Positions 18,594 through 55,524 of a stretch of 64,000 nt of DNA are shown piece after piece. How positions within the stretch are numbered: the stretch's first letter is position 1; each line of letters starts with the position of its first letter. Both the position numbers and the translations under genes were made by a program. The notes beneath the pieces are model-generated. The model worked only from the letters and a program-made list of their open reading frames with translations. It made no database searches and was not told the DNA's origin. The DNA is taken from contig NZ_CP009528.1 of the NCBI RefSeq assembly GCF_000970025.1, positions 3,769,168 to 3,833,167 on the forward strand, in the 5' to 3' direction. The DNA is from Methanosarcina barkeri MS (GTDB lineage: Archaea; Halobacteriota; Methanosarcinia; Methanosarcinales; Methanosarcinaceae).

Positions 18594-19799
18594 TCAATTT
18601 TTTTTACAACCTGATTTTTTCCTGCTTTCTTTCTGACGGAAAATTTCCAATGGTGAGATATTCGGGACGGAGAGGTCCTGCCCTGCCTGATAGCCGTAGA
18701 GTTCCTGAAATTCCACAGCAAAGGAATGCATAAAAAGGGCATTTGGGATATCCATTGGACAGAGTTCTTCGCATTGTCCGCAGTTGATACAGGAATCTGC
18801 AACAAGAGAATAGCGTAGTGCATGAAAGGCAAAGGATGGAGGAACCTTTCCAGGGGTGATAGTAAAGTCTGATACTTTTGTTCCGGACAGGGCAGGACAT
18901 ACTTCAATGCAGGTATAGCACTTGATGCAACGTGAAGTCTCATCCACAAGCTGTTTCAGGCGGGTTTTTCCTTCCCCTAACGACTGAAAATCTTTTTCTC
19001 TCCAGCCCTCGGCCAGCTTCAGCATCGACTTTTCGATTTTCCCCCGAATCTCCACACCTTTTGGGACAGGGGGAAAAGTTTCAACCACGCCTGCAGTTTT
19101 TGCCTGTTTAAGTAGTTCTGCGCCTTTTGCGCTGCATACCTCAACAAAGGTTGCTTCCATACCCATAACGCCCCATTCTCCACAGGCAAGATCAGCCTGC
19201 CTTGGAATTTTCAGTTTGCAGCGCCTGCAGTTACTTCTTCTTCCAAAGTTTGCCTCTTCCAATTTGTCTATGGGTATAGAAAACTCCTCTTCAGGAGTTT
19301 CAACGATAAACTTCCCCTTAGCAATCCTTTCCTTTTTAACCAAGTCAGGGTTAACTGCAAACGTTTCTACAATCATCTTCCTTGCCATTTCCGGACTTAT
19401 TGAGCCTCCGCAGTTTAGCCCAAGCATGAGGACATTTTCCAGCCTGACTTCTCCCCGCTTTGCAAGCTCATAAAGACCCATGACATCGCATCCTTTCAGG
19501 GCGACTGCAATTTTCAGGTTCTCTGCCTTTTCCAGGTACTTGCTGAAAAGCCTGGACAGAAGAAGGGTCCCGAAATGCAGGGAACCCGAAATTTCCGAAA
19601 TTTCTGCCGGGTCCGTAATCAGCACAGGTACAGCATCATAGATGTCGGCTCCTTTCCTGACCCCGAGCACCGCATCCACACTTCCGCTTTCCAGTGCAAA
19701 TTTCAATAGAGCTGAAACCGCACCGCCTGACTCACCTTTTTCCAGTAATTTCTGGTCACAAGCCTGGACATAAAACATGTCTCCTTCTGACGGTTTCAA
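18594..19799 (-). CDS. fdhB: F420-dependent formate dehydrogenase beta subunit
   Basis: This 401-residue iron-sulfur flavoprotein of the FrhB/FdhB family passes electrons between FdhA and coenzyme F420. The FrhB N-terminal region includes GESGGAVSALLKFALESG and the C-terminal region includes CRRCKLKIPRQADLACGEWG. Two ferredoxin-type clusters follow at CIKCYTCIEVCP (about 293-304) and CINCGQCEELCP (about 337-348). Its ATG overlaps the fdhA stop by four bases, so the subunits are coupled. It could also serve another F420 oxidoreductase, but the partner gene makes formate dehydrogenase most likely. Confidence 0.88.
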   Translation of the reverse strand: MKPSEGDMFYVQACDQKLLEKGESGGAVSALLKFALESGSVDAVLGVRKGADIYDAVPVLITDPAEISEISGSLHFGTLLLSRLFSKYLEKAENLKIAVALKGCDVMGLYELAKRGEVRLENVLMLGLNCGGSISPEMARKMIVETFAVNPDLVKKERIAKGKFIVETPEEEFSIPIDKLEEANFGRRSNCRRCKLKIPRQADLACGEWGVMGMEATFVEVCSAKGAELLKQAKTAGVVETFPPVPKGVEIRGKIEKSMLKLAEGWREKDFQSLGEGKTRLKQLVDETSRCIKCYTCIEVCPALSGTKVSDFTITPGKVPPSFAFHALRYSLVADSCINCGQCEELCPMDIPNALFMHSFAVEFQELYGYQAGQDLSVPNISPLEIFRQKESRKKSGCKKN

Positions 19800-21883
19800 A
19801 GCTGTCCCTCCAAAAGTTTACTTTCTTGAGGTTCTATTTTCTCAATTTTTACCGCACACGCCTTGTACTCCGGAATCTTTGCCACGGGGTCGAGAGCCCC
19901 GTTAGTCAGCAGGTTGGCTGCACATTCCTTAAAATGAAAAGGTATGAAGACAACCCCGGGTTTTATGTCTTCTGTGACCATTGAAGGGATTTCGATCTTC
20001 CCTCTCCGGGAAAGTACGCGGACTTTTTCTCGGTTGCGGATTCCCAACTTTTTTGCATCTTTAGGATTAAGCTCCACCCAGCCAGTTCTGACTTCGGAAG
20101 CAAGGGTTTTCGACCTGCGAGTCATAGTCCCTGTATGCCAGTGCCAGATGTTTCTTCCTGTAGTAAGAATGAAAGGATATTCCACATCCGGGACTTCGGC
20201 TGGGGGCTTCCATTCAATACCAGAAAACTCCGCCAGCCCATCAGAGGTGGAAAATTTTTCGGTATGCAGGATTGGAGTTCCTGGATGAGTTTTATCCGGG
20301 CAGGGCCACTGAAGAGAGTCAGGTTTTTCAAGGCGCTCATAGCTCATGCCTCCATACTGAGGGGTAACCTTTGAGATTTCCTCAAAAATCTCTGCTTCGT
20401 TCATGTAGGAAAATTGAGGCCCGTACCCCATACACCCGGCAAGTTCGCAAATGATGCGCCAGTCTGCCTTAGCATCTCCCGGAGGGTCTACAGCTTTCCT
20501 GATCCGCTGCACTCGACGTTCAGTATTGGTCTGGGTCCCGTTCTTTTCTGCATAACAAGCCGCAGGCAAGACAACATCAGCAAGATTTGCAGTCTCGCTC
20601 AGGAAAATATCCTGCACGACCAGAAAGTCCAGTTGCTTCATGGCTTTTCTCACCTTGTTTAGATCCGGGTCCGAGAGCATGAAATTTTCTCCCATAACAT
20701 ACATGCACTTCACAGTCGATGTTCCTTCTGCAAGCTGTTCCATCAGCTCCGTAACCGTAAGCCCAGGGGCTTTCGGAAGTCCGCTCACCCCCCAGATAGA
20801 TTCCATTTTCCTGTGGTTTTTCGGATCTGCAACCTTCTGGTAGCCAGGATATACATCCGGCAAGCAGCCCATGTCACATGCTCCCTGTACATTATTTTGC
20901 CCTCGCAGTGGGTTGACACCTCCACCTGGAACTCCGAGGTTTCCGGTTAGAAGCATCAAGTTTGCCGTGGACCTCACGTTGTCAACTCCCACCGTATGTT
21001 GGGTGATACCCATTGAATAAATGAGAGCCGATGGTTTTGATTGGGCAATCCACTCGGCTGCGGTTTTTAAGTCATCCTCTGGCACCCCTGTGATTTTTGA
21101 GACGTTGGGCAGGGAATAGATCTCCTGCATAACCACGGATTTCATTTCCTCATAATTTTTAGTCCTTTTTGAGATAAATGCCGAATCTTCCCAGCCATTT
21201 TCTATAATATGGTGCATGAGTCCATTTAGGAGGGCAACGTCCGTGCCTGAATACATAGAAAGATGTAGATCTGCCTGTTTTGCCGTGGGCGTGCAACGAG
21301 GGTCTGCACAGACTATTTTAGCCCCCTTCTTTTTTGCAAGCATTACTCTTCTTCCAATGAGTGGGTGCTGCTCGAGGGTATTGCTGCCAATAATGAAAAT
21401 GCATTTAGACTCTTCAATGTCCAAGATGGAATTCGTCATGGCTCCCGAGCCGAAAACTGCGGCAAGGCCAGCGACTGTAGAGGAATGACAGAGCCTTGCG
21501 CAGTGGTCAACGTTAGAAGTCTTAAGGACAACACGGGCGAATTTCTGCATAAGGTAGTTTTCTTCGTTCGAGGTTCTTGCTGAAGAGAGGCAAACAATTT
21601 CTTCAGGGAGAAAAGTCATGAATCTCCCTGCTATAAGGGCCAGGGCTTCTTCCCAACTTGTCTCTACAAGCTGCCCGTTTTCCCTCACCAGCGGCTTTAC
21701 AAGTCTGTCCTTGCTATGGATGAACTCATAAGCGTATCTGCCCTTTTGACAGAGCTTTCCTGCATTAACTGGAGCCCGGTGCCAGGGCTCAATGCCTACA
21801 GCTCTCCCATCTTTTACCACAATGTTAAACCCACATCCTGTCCCACAGTAAGGACAAGTCGTGTGCACATATTTCAATTCCAT
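19796..21883 (-). CDS. fdhA: Formate dehydrogenase alpha subunit (molybdopterin, Cys type)
   Basis: This 695-residue catalytic subunit should oxidise formate to CO2 at a bis-MGD molybdenum or tungsten site. The N-terminal 4Fe-4S motif is CPYCGTGCGFNIVVKDG with the fourth Cys in GKLCQKG. The active site reads CARLCHSSTVAGL near residue 137, with Cys in the place of selenocysteine followed by the catalytic His. TGNLGVPGGGVNPLRGQNN is the usual substrate/cofactor segment. The frame extends upstream to 21970, but ATG 21883 follows AGGAGAAAA and begins directly with MELKYVHTTCPYC, as in the family. FmdB-like, fdhA and fdhB form one minus-strand operon. Confidence 0.9.
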   Translation of the reverse strand: MELKYVHTTCPYCGTGCGFNIVVKDGRAVGIEPWHRAPVNAGKLCQKGRYAYEFIHSKDRLVKPLVRENGQLVETSWEEALALIAGRFMTFLPEEIVCLSSARTSNEENYLMQKFARVVLKTSNVDHCARLCHSSTVAGLAAVFGSGAMTNSILDIEESKCIFIIGSNTLEQHPLIGRRVMLAKKKGAKIVCADPRCTPTAKQADLHLSMYSGTDVALLNGLMHHIIENGWEDSAFISKRTKNYEEMKSVVMQEIYSLPNVSKITGVPEDDLKTAAEWIAQSKPSALIYSMGITQHTVGVDNVRSTANLMLLTGNLGVPGGGVNPLRGQNNVQGACDMGCLPDVYPGYQKVADPKNHRKMESIWGVSGLPKAPGLTVTELMEQLAEGTSTVKCMYVMGENFMLSDPDLNKVRKAMKQLDFLVVQDIFLSETANLADVVLPAACYAEKNGTQTNTERRVQRIRKAVDPPGDAKADWRIICELAGCMGYGPQFSYMNEAEIFEEISKVTPQYGGMSYERLEKPDSLQWPCPDKTHPGTPILHTEKFSTSDGLAEFSGIEWKPPAEVPDVEYPFILTTGRNIWHWHTGTMTRRSKTLASEVRTGWVELNPKDAKKLGIRNREKVRVLSRRGKIEIPSMVTEDIKPGVVFIPFHFKECAANLLTNGALDPVAKIPEYKACAVKIEKIEPQESKLLEGQL

Positions 21884-21997
21884 GTTTCCGTTTTCTCCTG
21901 AATACATTGGTATGTTCTGGTAAAATGATGGTTCATTAATGATAAGCTGATATTTTTCTAAACAATTCACATACCCGTATCTGCTTTCTTGCGGACT

Positions 21998-23362
21998 TCA
22001 TAGTACTCCAGGCAAAATTGCAGGCATTGATTCCTCTTGCTTAAATGCAGATTGGAGAAAACCAGTCTGAGTTTTTCCTTCTTTTATTTTTTCAAAAAGC
22101 TGTTTTAAGGTATCTTCATTACTCTGAGTGAATTTAAATGGGGAATCAAGGAACGGTTCAAAGTAAATAGGCACATCATCAAGCCTGTAGAAAGTCCCTT
22201 CACACTCTATGGAGTCAACTACTCCCGGAAGCACAATATCTGAGATAGACGTAGTTGGACAGGGAATTGTATCCAGGCAAATCAAAGGAATTTCTGAAAG
22301 GTAAGCTGCACAGTCAGGGGGAATCTGACTCAAAAGATCAGAACACATTACAAAAGCTGCATCCACGTCTTTTTCTCGAAGCAAATCTACGGTTGTGAAT
22401 TCTCCAGGGTTGTAACGTGGATATCCACGCATGAAGTCAAGCCCAAAGGGATACCCATACATGTAAGAAGCAACCTGGCTAAAACCTGCCGCGTTGCAGC
22501 GACTGCGGATAACTCCAATGGTAAATTTGGAATAATTGTTCAGCTCTTTCACAAAGTTCATGGCAATTTCAATATTCCTGTACTTCCCAGGAGATGAAGA
22601 CAGTCCAACTCCTACTGAGATAGTCCCAAAATTGCAGTTCTTCATTATACCGAGCATCTCTTCCATAACAGAAATCGGAACTCCTGTAATCTCCTCTACG
22701 GAATGATGAGGAGTTTTTCCATGTAAAAGCGTCAAGAGCGCGCTTATTAGCTCATAGTCGGAGTCCGGTTTAAGCTGCACATGCAGGTCAGAAGCTTTAG
22801 CAGTTAGAGTTTTTCTTGGGTCTACAGTAATGATTGTCCTGTCAAAACGCCCGCGTTTGGTCCAGTAACCTCTTGGGAAAACCCCATATCTGGACATCTG
22901 CCTGGGCATGGATTCAAGTGGATTTGTTCCCCAGTAAACCAAAAGGTCGGCCCTGTTTTTCTTCTGCCCTTCAGTTGCACCGACTTTTCCGGCTTCCTGA
23001 GTTCCCATTACTGTGGCCCCATTGCCAGTTGTATCTACAATTGCACCCAGATATTCCCCTATCATAAGCCCCACTTCATGTGCTTCACAGGAAGTTTCGC
23101 TGCCTATGGAAATCAGTGGACGCTTAGCCGAAGACAGGATGTCTGCAGCTATTTGAAGGGCTCCGTCCCAGGAAACCGGCCTTAATTTTCCTCCGAACTT
23201 TAGAAGAGGCTGTTTAAACCTTTGGGGACTTGTAACCTCATTAAATCTGGAAATTCCCATCTTGCATACATTTTTAGCTTCAATCTTTCCACCCTTGATT
23301 TCAACCTGGATATCGTCGCAGGCAGCCCCACAGACAGGACAGACTATATTTTTGTGGATCAT
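21998..23362 (-). CDS. FmdB/FwdB-like molybdopterin protein lacking the Cys-His active-site pair
   Basis: This 454-residue protein is clearly related to the catalytic B subunit of formylmethanofuran dehydrogenase. It has CPVCGAACDDIQVEI at the N-terminus, KKNRADLLVYWGTNP near 120-134, DFMRGYPRYNPGEFTTVDLL near 310, and CEGTFYRLDDVPI near the end. Where FmdB/FwdB proteins carry Cys/Sec-His-Gly-Pro about 22 residues before KNRAD, this protein has Gly-Asn-Gly-Ala. The metal-ligating Cys and catalytic His are therefore missing. No other fmd/fwd subunit is beside it; instead fdhA and fdhB follow after 114 bases. It may be a structural or electron-transfer partner of Fdh. ATG 23362 after CGGAG is preferred to GTG 23368. 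Confidence 0.8.
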   Translation of the reverse strand: MIHKNIVCPVCGAACDDIQVEIKGGKIEAKNVCKMGISRFNEVTSPQRFKQPLLKFGGKLRPVSWDGALQIAADILSSAKRPLISIGSETSCEAHEVGLMIGEYLGAIVDTTGNGATVMGTQEAGKVGATEGQKKNRADLLVYWGTNPLESMPRQMSRYGVFPRGYWTKRGRFDRTIITVDPRKTLTAKASDLHVQLKPDSDYELISALLTLLHGKTPHHSVEEITGVPISVMEEMLGIMKNCNFGTISVGVGLSSSPGKYRNIEIAMNFVKELNNYSKFTIGVIRSRCNAAGFSQVASYMYGYPFGLDFMRGYPRYNPGEFTTVDLLREKDVDAAFVMCSDLLSQIPPDCAAYLSEIPLICLDTIPCPTTSISDIVLPGVVDSIECEGTFYRLDDVPIYFEPFLDSPFKFTQSNEDTLKQLFEKIKEGKTQTGFLQSAFKQEESMPAILPGVL

Positions 23363-23368
23363 ACTCAC

Positions 23369-45164: not shown

Positions 45165-45475
45165 GTTGTAGTTATGACTTTTTTAATAAAAGGCTTAACT
45201 GCAAACTTTTTTGAAAAAGAGTTGATTGAAAAATCCAGCAAAACTACGTGGTCAGCGTTATCACAACCATTTTCAAAAAACTGCTTGCCTGCAACCCTTT
45301 TGAAAAAAGGCTTGACCGAGAATTTTAGCAACGAAAGGATCAAACATCATAATGGTTGCAGCACAACCCTTTTGAAAAAAGGCTTGACCGAAAACAACAG
45401 CAAGAACGTGATCGGCGTGATCAAACGGCGCAACGGTTGCGGCACATACGATCATGCATTGAGTTTTTTGAAAAC
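45165..45475. repeat. Dispersed hairpin repeat cluster, includes the 80-bp element
   Basis: Several copies of CCTTTTGAAAAAAGGCTTGA occur here. The stretch 45289-45370 (GCAACCC...GCTTGACCGA...CAGCAACGAAAGGATCAA...GGTTGCAG) is nearly identical, in inverted orientation, to 61565-61651. The cluster fills the spacer between lysA and polX and overlaps the last codons of polX. Confidence 0.8.
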
Positions 45476-47206
45476 TTGTTTAAGCCTGGAGTAGGAGTAG
45501 GTGTTTACAACGTCTTCTTTTTCCAACCAGCCTCGACGCGCCTGTCCGAGGCCGTACCGCATGGAAGTCAGGTCGGAAACGGCATGGCTGTCTGAAGATA
45601 TACAGAACTTTAGGCCAAAGGTCTTTGCACGCAGGATAAGCTCGTCATTAAGGTCAAGCCTTGAAGGCTGGCTGTTGATCTCCATTACTCTTCCATTTGC
45701 AGCGGCAGCTTCAAAGACTTTTTCAAAATTAACGGCATAAGCCTCTCTTTTTCCAAGCAGCCTGCCTGAGGGATGTGCAAGGATATCGAGGTATTTGTTC
45801 TCCAGAGCCGTGACAATCCTTTCAGTCATTCTCCTTTCAAGGAATGCAAAACCGGAATGTACAGCTCCTACCACAATATCGAGTTCTTTGAGAATCTCAT
45901 CAGGATAGTCAAGGCTTCCATCTTTCAGGATATCGACCTCAGATCCTTTGAGGATTTTTATCCGGAATATTTTTGAGAGTTTGTCGATTTCTTTCCATTG
46001 GGCTTTTAATTTCTCAACATCCAGGCCGTTTGCAACCTTCTGGGAACGGGAATGATCGGTTACTGCGATATACTCATAACCAAAAGCTTCTGCTTTTTCA
46101 ATCATTGTTTTTAGGCTGTCTTTTCCTTCACTGTATTCGGTGTGCATGTGGAGATCTCCCCTGAGATTGCCTGCTTCTACCAGTTTGGGCAGGGCATTTC
46201 TTGCAGCGGCTTTAATTTCTCCCCGGTTTTCACGAAGTTCGGGTGGGATATAGGCAAGGCCAAGTTTTTCATAAATCTCTGCTTCGCTGTTGCCTGCAAT
46301 CTGTTTACCGGATTCTTTTAAATACAGCCCGTATTCAGAAAGTTTGTAACCGTTTTTGATGGCAACGTTTCTAAGTTCTATATTGTGCTCCTTTGAGCCC
46401 GTAAAATACTGAAGAGCTGCTCCGTAACTTTCAGGTGGGACTACTCTAAGGTCAATAGCTGTCCCTTCTCTCAAAATTACGCTGCTTTTTGTGCTACCTT
46501 TTAAGATCACTTGTTCAACGTCCGGAAGGGAGACAAAACAATCCATTACTTTCAAGGCCTCTTCTTTTTCAGCTTCTGCCAGGATATCGATATCCCCAAT
46601 TGTCTCTTTCAACCTGCGGAGTGAACCTGTGCATATTATTTTCGAGAGATCGATTTTAGAGGTTCTGCTTTCACACTGGGCTTTTAAAGCAGATATGACT
46701 TCGTCTGCTAGTGGAAGTGCTTTTCCGAGAGCTAGCCGGGCATGGCTTTTCTCATACTGCTCAATTGCCCTTGCCAGATTCTTTTCACTTTTTTCTCCAA
46801 ATCCTTCGAGCCTCTTTAGCCTGTGGGCAATGATTGCGTTTTTAAGATCTGAAAGTGTCCTTACACCAAGGGCATCGGAGAGATTTTTGATTTTCTTTGC
46901 CCCAAGCCCTCGAATTTCCATTAGTTCTGTAGCACCTGAAGGGGCTTTTTCTTTAAGCTTTTCAAATTTTTCCACTTCGCCTGTTTCCAGATATTCGGCA
47001 ATGTGATTAGCAATTGACTCCCCTATGCCCGGAATTTTAGTTAGTCCAGATTTTCCGTCTTTGGTATAGATTTTTTCTATGTCTTCCCCAAGGTTTTCTA
47101 TCATCTGAGCAGCTTTCCTATAAGCCCGTGGTTTCCATTCAACCTGCTGGTATTCAAGAATGTCAGCAACCTCATAAAATAACTCGGCAATCTCTCGATT
47201 TCTCAA
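45452..47206 (-). CDS. polX: Family X DNA polymerase with PHP domain
   Basis: This 584-residue repair polymerase has N-terminal helix-hairpin-helix motifs (LTKIPGIGESIANHIAEYL near 55; IRGLGAKKIKNLSDALG near 97). The Pol X palm contains GSLRRLKETIGDIDILAEA near 194 with the catalytic DxD, and a third Asp in GTAIDLRVVPPES. The PHP domain starts GDLHMHTEYSEGKDS near 348 and contains AVTDHSR, ILAHPSGRLL and SSDSHAVSDL; in bacterial PolX it gives 3'-5' exonuclease and AP-endonuclease activity. Typical length is 570-590. Its last codons overlap a dispersed repeat. Confidence 0.93.
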   Translation of the reverse strand: MRNREIAELFYEVADILEYQQVEWKPRAYRKAAQMIENLGEDIEKIYTKDGKSGLTKIPGIGESIANHIAEYLETGEVEKFEKLKEKAPSGATELMEIRGLGAKKIKNLSDALGVRTLSDLKNAIIAHRLKRLEGFGEKSEKNLARAIEQYEKSHARLALGKALPLADEVISALKAQCESRTSKIDLSKIICTGSLRRLKETIGDIDILAEAEKEEALKVMDCFVSLPDVEQVILKGSTKSSVILREGTAIDLRVVPPESYGAALQYFTGSKEHNIELRNVAIKNGYKLSEYGLYLKESGKQIAGNSEAEIYEKLGLAYIPPELRENRGEIKAAARNALPKLVEAGNLRGDLHMHTEYSEGKDSLKTMIEKAEAFGYEYIAVTDHSRSQKVANGLDVEKLKAQWKEIDKLSKIFRIKILKGSEVDILKDGSLDYPDEILKELDIVVGAVHSGFAFLERRMTERIVTALENKYLDILAHPSGRLLGKREAYAVNFEKVFEAAAANGRVMEINSQPSRLDLNDELILRAKTFGLKFCISSDSHAVSDLTSMRYGLGQARRGWLEKEDVVNTYSYSRLKQVFKKLNA

Positions 47207-47423: not shown

Positions 47424-49172
47424 TCAAATGCCTCTGCCTTCCTTTAAATTCCGGACTTCTGTAAGTGTAGTAATATCATAAAGTCCTTTATCATGTCTTA
47501 TGCGTAAAAAGCGAGGAAAACGCAGAGCAAGCCCGGTATTTCCTTTTCCCTGCCCGGCAGTGTGACTCGGGCTTTCAGTAATTTCCGAACCAAGGACTTC
47601 AATAACCAGAGACGGTTCTACAAAGATATCCGGAAGCATTCTACTTTTTATGAGTACATTTTTAGGGACTTCAGAAATAATATGCTCTGAAAGTAAGCTG
47701 TCGATTTCTTTCGCGTCCTCTTCTGTGAACCCGGTTCCAACTTTTGTAAAAGTTTCAAAACGCTGTTCCTCTTCATTAAGAATTGCACAGAGGAGAGACC
47801 CAAATGAACCTTTCCTTTTTCCTCGTCCGTAATATTTCCCTACAATTGCAAGGTCAAAGGTCTCTCTCATCCCGCTGGCATATTCTTCTTTCCATTTGAG
47901 CCAGAGCCAGCTCCTTTTTCCGGCTTCGTAAATAGAATTCCGATCCATAGATTTGATTATAATTCCTTCAAGCTTCTTTTCCAGAGCCTCGTTGAAAAAG
48001 TCCTCTATTTCTTCAAGATTATCCGTAACAATTCTTCTAGCAAGGCGAAGAATTTCTGATTCCTTTACATATTTCTCAAGGATAGCTCGTCTTTCCGGGT
48101 AAGATTTTTTCAGAAGCGAATTTCCTTCCAAGTACAGGATATCGAAAAAGAATACGGCAACAGGGCAAATTTCAGCATATTTTTGGACCTCATACTTTCT
48201 GCGCCTCTTCATTAGTCTCTGGAATGAATAAAATTCTCCAGTTGAATCGTCTGCTTTCCTGCCTTCAACGTATGCAACGATTTCCCCATCAAGCACGATT
48301 TTCTCTGCAAGAATGCCTTTCCTGACTGCTTCCACAACATCGGGATACTGGGCAGTTATATCTTCAAGCCTTCGAGAAAAAGCTTTAACCTCTTCTCCGT
48401 TTTTATGGATCTGCACTCTCTCCCCATCATATTTTTCTTCGGCTGCTTTTTTTCCGGGAATTCGTTCTTCAAGCTCTTCAAAGGTTTCCACGCGCTGCGC
48501 AAGCATTGACCTTACAGGCCGGCCAAGTTTTATGGAGAAGCGCCCAAGAGCTTTCGGACCGTGTTCTGCAAGGGATTCTGCAAGCTCTCCGATGTCAGTA
48601 CAAACGCTATAGCTTTCTTTGATCTTGACGACATATTTTTCGTCCCCTGTAAAAGCGATAGAAAATGCCTCAAGCAAAAATTGGTCCCCAAAACCAAGCC
48701 TTAGTTTCCCAAGTACAATCCTGACTATGTATTTTCCTTCTTTGGGACTGGCTCGCTACAGGATACTGGAAAGCAGCCCGGTTTTTTCCTCCTGACTTCC
48801 TTTTCCTGAGGCTTCTTTTATCTCTTTTAATCTTCCAAACACTTCATCAATTGCCAGAGACTTTTCTTCTCTACGATTTAACTCAAAAGCTACATTCCCA
48901 AGGTCCCCTGTCCTTGAATATCTTTTTTTAACCTCTTCTTCGGAAACTTCGTATGCTCCGGCAATAGCTTTTAAAGCGAGCTTATCTCCTATTCCCAGTG
49001 CTGTATTCTCAAAAGCAGGTCCTATGCTCCCGAGAAAAAGGTATGCACTGTCATTTACTTCCTTTCCTTCCAGCCCCTAAAAAAAATTAGCAATTTTCCT
49101 GACGATTTCCTTATGGGATGTTATGTTTTCAAGTTCCTCAAAAAGCTCCGCAAGCTCTATGAATCGAGCCAT
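47424..49172 (-). CDS. lig: ATP-dependent DNA ligase with two in-frame UAG (putative pyrrolysine) codons
   Basis: This 583-codon frame encodes the replicative DNA ligase that seals nicks. It is open from ATG 49172 (after GAGAGGGT) to TGA at 47424 except for TAG at codon 32 (49077-49079) and codon 139 (48756-48758). Both sides of each TAG read as ligase in the same frame: VRKIANFF then GLEGKEVND; GLLSSIL then RASPKEGKYIVRIVLG. Conserved parts include LFLGSIGPAFENTALGIG, the catalytic Lys in EEKYDGERVQIHKNG (about residue 247), LDGEIVAY and EGIIIKS. The frame is undamaged otherwise, so pyrrolysine insertion is the simplest reading in Methanosarcina. A start inside the gene (TTG 48677) would remove the DNA-binding domain. 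Confidence 0.88.
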
Positions 49173-49385
49173 TACCCTCTCCCCGAAAAAACGCTTTGAA
49201 ATTTTTCTCTATACTAGAATTCAATTTGCAGGTCTTTATCGCTTTGCACCCTCAAATTTCAGAAATAGAGTTTTTCCTCTTTTCCCCATGAAACAACTAT
49301 CTCTGCCGTTCTCTCTTCATTACCGAAACCTTTAATATCTAAAAGATGCATGAGGAGAATACACATCACCTCTATATATCTTCAT

Positions 49386-54795: not shown

Positions 54796-55524
54796 ATGGA
54801 ATTACTTTCCCAGATTGATTCTCTTTTTGATTTCCTTCTCACGTCACTGTCAATTTTATGGTTGATTCTTATTATTATAGACTTAGTGTCTGGTCTTTCA
54901 CCTACATTGCAGACATTAAGTTTTTTTATCTGGGGAATATTTATAATTGATTTTTTTATCGAACTGGAAGTTTCCCCGAAAAAGAAGGATTATTTAAAGG
55001 AAAACTGGCTTGTCGCTCTTTCCCTGTTTTTGCCTGCATTGAGAATCCTGAGGCTATTTAGCGGATTCAAGCTGGTTGGTTTTGCAAGCCATGTCAGATC
55101 TCTTCATCTGGCCAGTGTTCTCTCTTCTTTTTATCGGAGCTTAAGAACAGTCCGACAGATAATGGAGCAGCGAGGCTTGATATATATTCTGCTGCTTACG
55201 ACTTTGATAACTCTACTTGGAGCCGCGGGGATATATGATTTTGAGCGGCAAGGTTTTACTTCTTATTTGGATGCTCTCCGGTGGACAGCAATGATTATGA
55301 TTACAGTAGGAAGTAATTACTGGCCAAAAACCGCTGAAGGAAGGATACTGGCCTTCTTATTATCTGCTTATGCTTTATACATTCTCGTATATGTAACTGC
55401 GGCCCTTGCACACCTTCTTGTCAGAAGTGAAAAGTCGTTCTCAAAAGAGATTGAAGAACTGCGCAGCAAAGTACAGTGTCTTTCCAGTGAAATTAACAGG
55501 TTTTCAGAAAGGGAAAAAAAGTAG
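54796..55524 (+). CDS. Voltage-gated-type ion channel with a non-canonical selectivity filter
   Basis: This 242-residue protein has the layout of a six-helix tetrameric channel: S1-S3 about 10-90, an Arg-bearing S4-like segment LPALRILRLFSGFK near 80-93, and a pore module S5-P-S6 near 130-210. The pore region reads ALRWTAMIMITVGSNYWPKT, where a potassium channel would have TVGYGD. A cytoplasmic coiled-coil tail (about 213-242, IEELRSKVQCLSSEIN) may aid tetramer formation. Ion selectivity is therefore uncertain. It ends in TAG, unlike the other genes whose stops I read; reading through would add 37 residues. Confidence 0.82.
   Translation: MELLSQIDSLFDFLLTSLSILWLILIIIDLVSGLSPTLQTLSFFIWGIFIIDFFIELEVSPKKKDYLKENWLVALSLFLPALRILRLFSGFKLVGFASHVRSLHLASVLSSFYRSLRTVRQIMEQRGLIYILLLTTLITLLGAAGIYDFERQGFTSYLDALRWTAMIMITVGSNYWPKTAEGRILAFLLSAYALYILVYVTAALAHLLVRSEKSFSKEIEELRSKVQCLSSEINRFSEREKK

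Follow-up and report, generated by a model that had tools for sequence, protein, structure and literature searches.

Whether a DNA ligase gene interrupted by two in-frame TAG codons is a working gene or a decaying one was the question raised at positions 47424–49172 (minus strand) of the window, the 64,000-nucleotide stretch of the Methanosarcina barkeri MS genome analysed here. An earlier note on this DNA had described a continuous frame with TAG at codons 32 and 139 only. Translation bore this out, the only internal stops being TAG32 (49077–49079) and TAG139 (48756–48758), and the frame comprises 582 codons plus TGA. The read-through product matched the Pfam models DNA_ligase_A_N (residues 4–171), A_M (223–428) and A_C (453–562), and scored 483 bits with TIGR00574, whose cut-off is 217.8. 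With three domains in order and the motif-I KxDG lysine, the frame is by these matches a complete ATP-dependent DNA ligase; the expected adenylation site is Lys247 (EKYDGER, 48432–48434), which is invariant in the ligase alignment. Homology continues in frame through both TAGs and the codon-32 TAG lies in the same frame in nine other species, in agreement with the note's description of ligase sequence on both sides of each TAG. Judged from these alignments, the TAG pattern is not due to chance.

In the AlphaFold model (mean pLDDT 78), residue 32 forms the end of helix 20–32 and residue 139 lies near the end of helix 126–140. Both positions are distant from the catalytic lysine, consistent with the earlier suggestion that neither TAG is catalytic. 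Among solved structures, the Sulfolobus solfataricus ligase 2hiv came closest in both sequence and Foldseek E-value (416 bits versus 288–327 for the listed euryarchaeal structures). The three domains and the motif-I lysine are shared with this and other archaeal ATP-dependent ligases (Thermococcus, Pyrococcus, Archaeoglobus), which, unlike the present gene, are not UAG-encoded. Just 5' of the ATG is a purine-rich, ribosome-binding-like GGGGAG (49179–49184, minus strand), and further upstream is an element, TGCAAAGCGATAAAGACC (49231–49248, minus strand), that occurs once in the genome, is largely kept in TAG-bearing and TAG-free orthologs alike and had no match in Rfam. An in-frame TGA in four ligases of the g10 genus (L051–L054) was considered as an internal stop and rejected, as it falls at or beyond query position 578, the natural end of the gene.

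The machinery for decoding UAG as pyrrolysine (Pyl), which the note had assumed, was found in the source genome. A tRNA-Pyl(CUA) is located at C2:160000–174000, together with a PylS of 419 residues and ORFs arranged as PylB, PylC, PylD; PylS and PylB were confirmed with family models, and PylC and PylD were assigned by position and sequence alone. Two copies of mtmB are present, each with one TAG. UAG also appeared to be avoided as a stop, as had been proposed: of the window's 40 ORFs with 150 aa or more, one (at 54796) ends in UAG, as do 10 of the 267 ORFs (3.7%) in the 464 kb genome sample from which genome-wide stop usage was estimated. UAG in this genome is therefore rare yet still in use as a stop, and Pyl-decoding archaea are known to use UAG both as a stop and as a sense codon (PMC2933860). 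A blind scan of the 464 kb for TAG-split coding frames picked up a single gene (L082:7213–8616, minus strand, one TAG at codon 356), which we take to be the dimethylamine methyltransferase gene mtbB and which served as a positive control. The scan missed the UAG ligase, probably because another in-frame TAG lies 39 bases 5' of its ATG, and it therefore says little about the frequency of TAG-split genes.

The two TAG codons have different histories. TAG32 was found in 11 Methanosarcina species (G000, the source genome, G003, G004, G005, G012, G018, G021, G026, G028 and G029, plus G002), comprising nine full-length frames, one with a late frameshift (G005) and one in a frameshifted assembly (G002), in which the second ligase is also frameshifted. 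Decayed ligase copies in G013, G014, G015 and G030 likewise show TAG32. In the gene tree the 11 species formed one group, sister to G019 and G017, with pairwise dS among the TAG32 ligases of up to about 0.8. A PylS was found in 10 of these species; the eleventh is represented by a metagenome-assembled genome (MAG) of 75% completeness. The alignment that the note had called for showed six different residues at site 32 in TAG-free Methanosarcina (G, S, E, R, K, L); Gly, Ser, Glu, Arg and Lys are those of the acetivorans-type group, and other genera carry Arg, Thr or Lys.

Both sister genomes lack working Pyl genes. In G019, an MAG, PylS contains two stops, PylB and MtmB were not found, and the ligase is intact with TTA (Leu) at site 32. 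In G017, also an MAG, PylS, PylB and MtmB were all not found, and the ligase is frameshifted with TAT (Tyr) at site 32. These sense codons fit a loss of TAG32 upon loss of decoding, with the ancestral codon uncertain. The PylS pseudogene of G019 (L115 on contig C148, two stops) was noted separately; G019 has likely lost the pyrrolysine system recently, with the same outcome in G016 and G017.

Under a codon model, omega for the TAG-bearing ligases was 0.34 for codons 1–31, 0.18 for codons 33–138 and 0.17 from codon 140 to the end, which lies near the corresponding values in the TAG-free clade (0.12, 0.16 and 0.10). For codons 1–31, omega = 1 was rejected (best log-likelihood −329.2 versus −323.0, 2ΔlnL about 12.5, kappa optimised). 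That both flanks of TAG32 have been under selection across pairwise dS values reaching about 0.8 implies that the two parts would be made as one protein. It is extremely improbable that translation instead restarts after UAG32 to give a shortened ligase, with codons 1–31 as a leader peptide. A TTG at codon 34 occurs in 6 of 10 TAG-bearing copies and could serve such a restart, but it is missing in L004 (the source genome), L006, L011 and L014, where the next start codons lie at 94–111. Start codons 3' of UAG32 are not conserved, and several TAG-bearing genes have no ATG, GTG or TTG for at least 60 codons, so that a restart could not rescue the domain. The product would also lose conserved N-terminal helices, and codons 1–31 match the starts of TAG-free orthologs and are under selection.

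An RNA element (PYLIS-like) after UAG32 was sought in 10 species, and folding was no stabler than in shuffled sequences; such an element is not essential in known Pyl cases (PMC2933860). Between 44 and 52 kb of the window, the sole real Rfam match was a tRNA-Gly. As TAG32 is common to 11 species, lies between segments under purifying selection and has neither a conserved restart site nor an RNA element after it, it is almost certainly translated, and the inserted residue would most simply be pyrrolysine. Near-cognate readthrough with an ordinary amino acid such as Gln, Tyr or Trp, for which pyrrolysine would be unneeded, is very unlikely: residue 32 varies so freely that any residue would serve, but a dedicated UAG-reading tRNA is present, and site 32 is a sense codon in both relatives that lack a functional Pyl system. 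As a separate observation, dS across codons 1–31 (49080–49172, minus strand) was 0–0.09 in four barkeri/vacuolata-type species, compared with about 0.2–0.7 in the rest of the gene; nonsynonymous changes do occur there in the same four species.

At site 139, every other Methanosarcina copy compared has CAG or CAA (Gln), with TAG in the source genome alone. On this comparison, TAG139 is a recent change private to the source genome, as against the old and common TAG32. Conservation of the UAG across species, one mark of a Pyl protein, was seen at codon 32 and was absent at codon 139. The earlier proposal of two pyrrolysines or UAG readthrough found good support at codon 32, with its clade-wide TAG, purifying selection on both sides and Pyl genes; at codon 139 pyrrolysine is plausible. 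It is highly improbable that TAG139 stems from a C-to-T error in base calling. The codon is private, one base from CAG and known from the one assembly of the species compared, but that assembly is a near-complete genome in two contigs, and C-to-T is the commonest natural change.

The note had regarded the ligase as an essential replication enzyme, a claim that does not stand. A second intact ligase is encoded at C2:1344438–1346105 (573 aa, about 37% identical to the UAG ligase), and ligases of this second type were found throughout the family. Among the 31 Methanosarcina genomes, 30 have one; G027, where none was found, is 60% complete. The UAG ligase family has a patchy distribution and is missing or decayed in many species through repeated loss. 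The next gene downstream, at 45452–47206 (minus strand), encodes PolX (DNA polymerase/3'–5' exonuclease), and the same order, with PolX directly after the ligase, is seen in Methanosarcina as well as in four species belonging to other genera of the family. PolX often remains in species without the UAG ligase. From this context, the UAG ligase looks like an accessory repair ligase paired with PolX rather than a replication ligase.

The whole-genome search for another ligase also bears on the note's alternative that the gene is degrading. In its sharpest form, the gene would be dying in the source genome, with the other ligase sufficing and TAG139 an early knockout after TAG32 had made the gene inefficient. 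The intact second ligase, the ligase remnants in eight genomes (G030, G011, G013, G014, G015, G016, G023 and G024) and the private nature of TAG139 agree with this, and we nonetheless consider it unlikely. The 582 codons contain no other lesion, and the terminal branch of the source-genome ligase (25 synonymous and 19 nonsynonymous changes) is no worse than that of its TAG139-free sister (28 and 24). Relaxed selection was not seen at the clade level, and a dying gene leaves TAG32 under purifying selection in 10 other species unexplained.

The explanation we regard as probable is a working, accessory repair-type ligase acting with PolX, in which UAG32 is read as pyrrolysine and UAG139 is recent; the inserted residue, the yield and the repair role are the parts of it that we infer. 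At UAG32, pyrrolysine insertion by the ribosome through tRNA-Pyl(CUA) would compete with termination, and each mRNA would yield part full-length ligase and part 31-residue peptide. UAG32 would have a single origin, no later than the common ancestor of the barkeri–thermophila–vacuolata group, and would have been kept since, at a surface-like helix end tolerant of many residues. UAG139 would have arisen recently from a CAG codon for Gln, and is probably decoded likewise at a further cost in yield. Against this explanation, omega for codons 1–31 was higher with TAG (0.34 versus 0.12), the ligase has decayed in the Pyl-positive relatives G030, G013, G014 and G015, and both Pyl-less relatives are MAGs with an uncertain ancestral codon at site 32. 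A UAG introduced into uidA was read as Pyl with an apparent efficiency of 20–30% in M. acetivorans (PMC2933860), a precedent in favour of the explanation; two UAGs at this generic efficiency would, as a further point against it, give only about 4–9% full-length ligase.

TAG32 may have been retained by drift or by selection, with drift favoured. Site 32 is the most variable ligase column in TAG-free species and shows no change in the TAG clade. Tree length was 0.87 for the TAG clade, compared with 0.575 for the acetivorans group, which has at least four changes at this site. From these lengths, the probability of no change in the TAG clade was 0.002 (plug-in) to 0.016 (gamma), in a test chosen after the site had been seen. 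Of 34 other columns, used as a control, in which the TAG-free group shows three or four residues, 9 were invariant in the TAG clade, so drift could still account for TAG32. We doubt that UAG32 is a selected gate by which the level or behaviour of a repair ligase linked to PolX is tied to pyrrolysine supply, and hence to methylamine metabolism.

Besides the methylamine methyltransferases, Thg1 (tRNA-His guanylyltransferase) of M. acetivorans was the only other protein in which Pyl had been observed according to a 2010 review (Heinemann 2009, as reviewed in PMC2933860). Thg1 and the ligase are both enzymes other than methyltransferases, both come from Pyl-decoding Methanosarcina, and each has its in-frame UAG at a dispensable site. 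In Thg1, however, the UAG was reported in one species and Pyl was physically observed, whereas the ligase UAG occurs in 11 species and its Pyl is predicted. The ligase would extend this known phenomenon to a clade-wide conserved site. It resembles MtmB, MtbB and MttB, whose UAG is decoded by PylT/PylS, in that its in-frame UAG keeps the same codon position from species to species. It differs in that their Pyl is taken as catalytic and their UAG is nearly universal, while the ligase site is remote from catalysis and its TAG-free orthologs have many residues there. Two surveys of candidate Pyl genes do not name DNA ligase in their main text; this applies to the open-access literature, and an earlier report is possible. 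The clade-conserved UAG comes with natural controls, namely TAG-free and Pyl-less relatives, and so allows a direct test of whether UAG can become a lasting sense codon in ordinary genes. A further implication is a warning that annotation may label such UAG-containing genes as pseudogenes.

Elsewhere in the window, 18594–23368 (minus strand) contains a run of molybdopterin oxidoreductase genes, of which the middle one is formate-dehydrogenase-like, and after them an iron-sulfur protein gene. A long in-frame extension past the TGA at 21998 was considered as readthrough and proved to be just two adjoining molybdopterin oxidoreductase genes.
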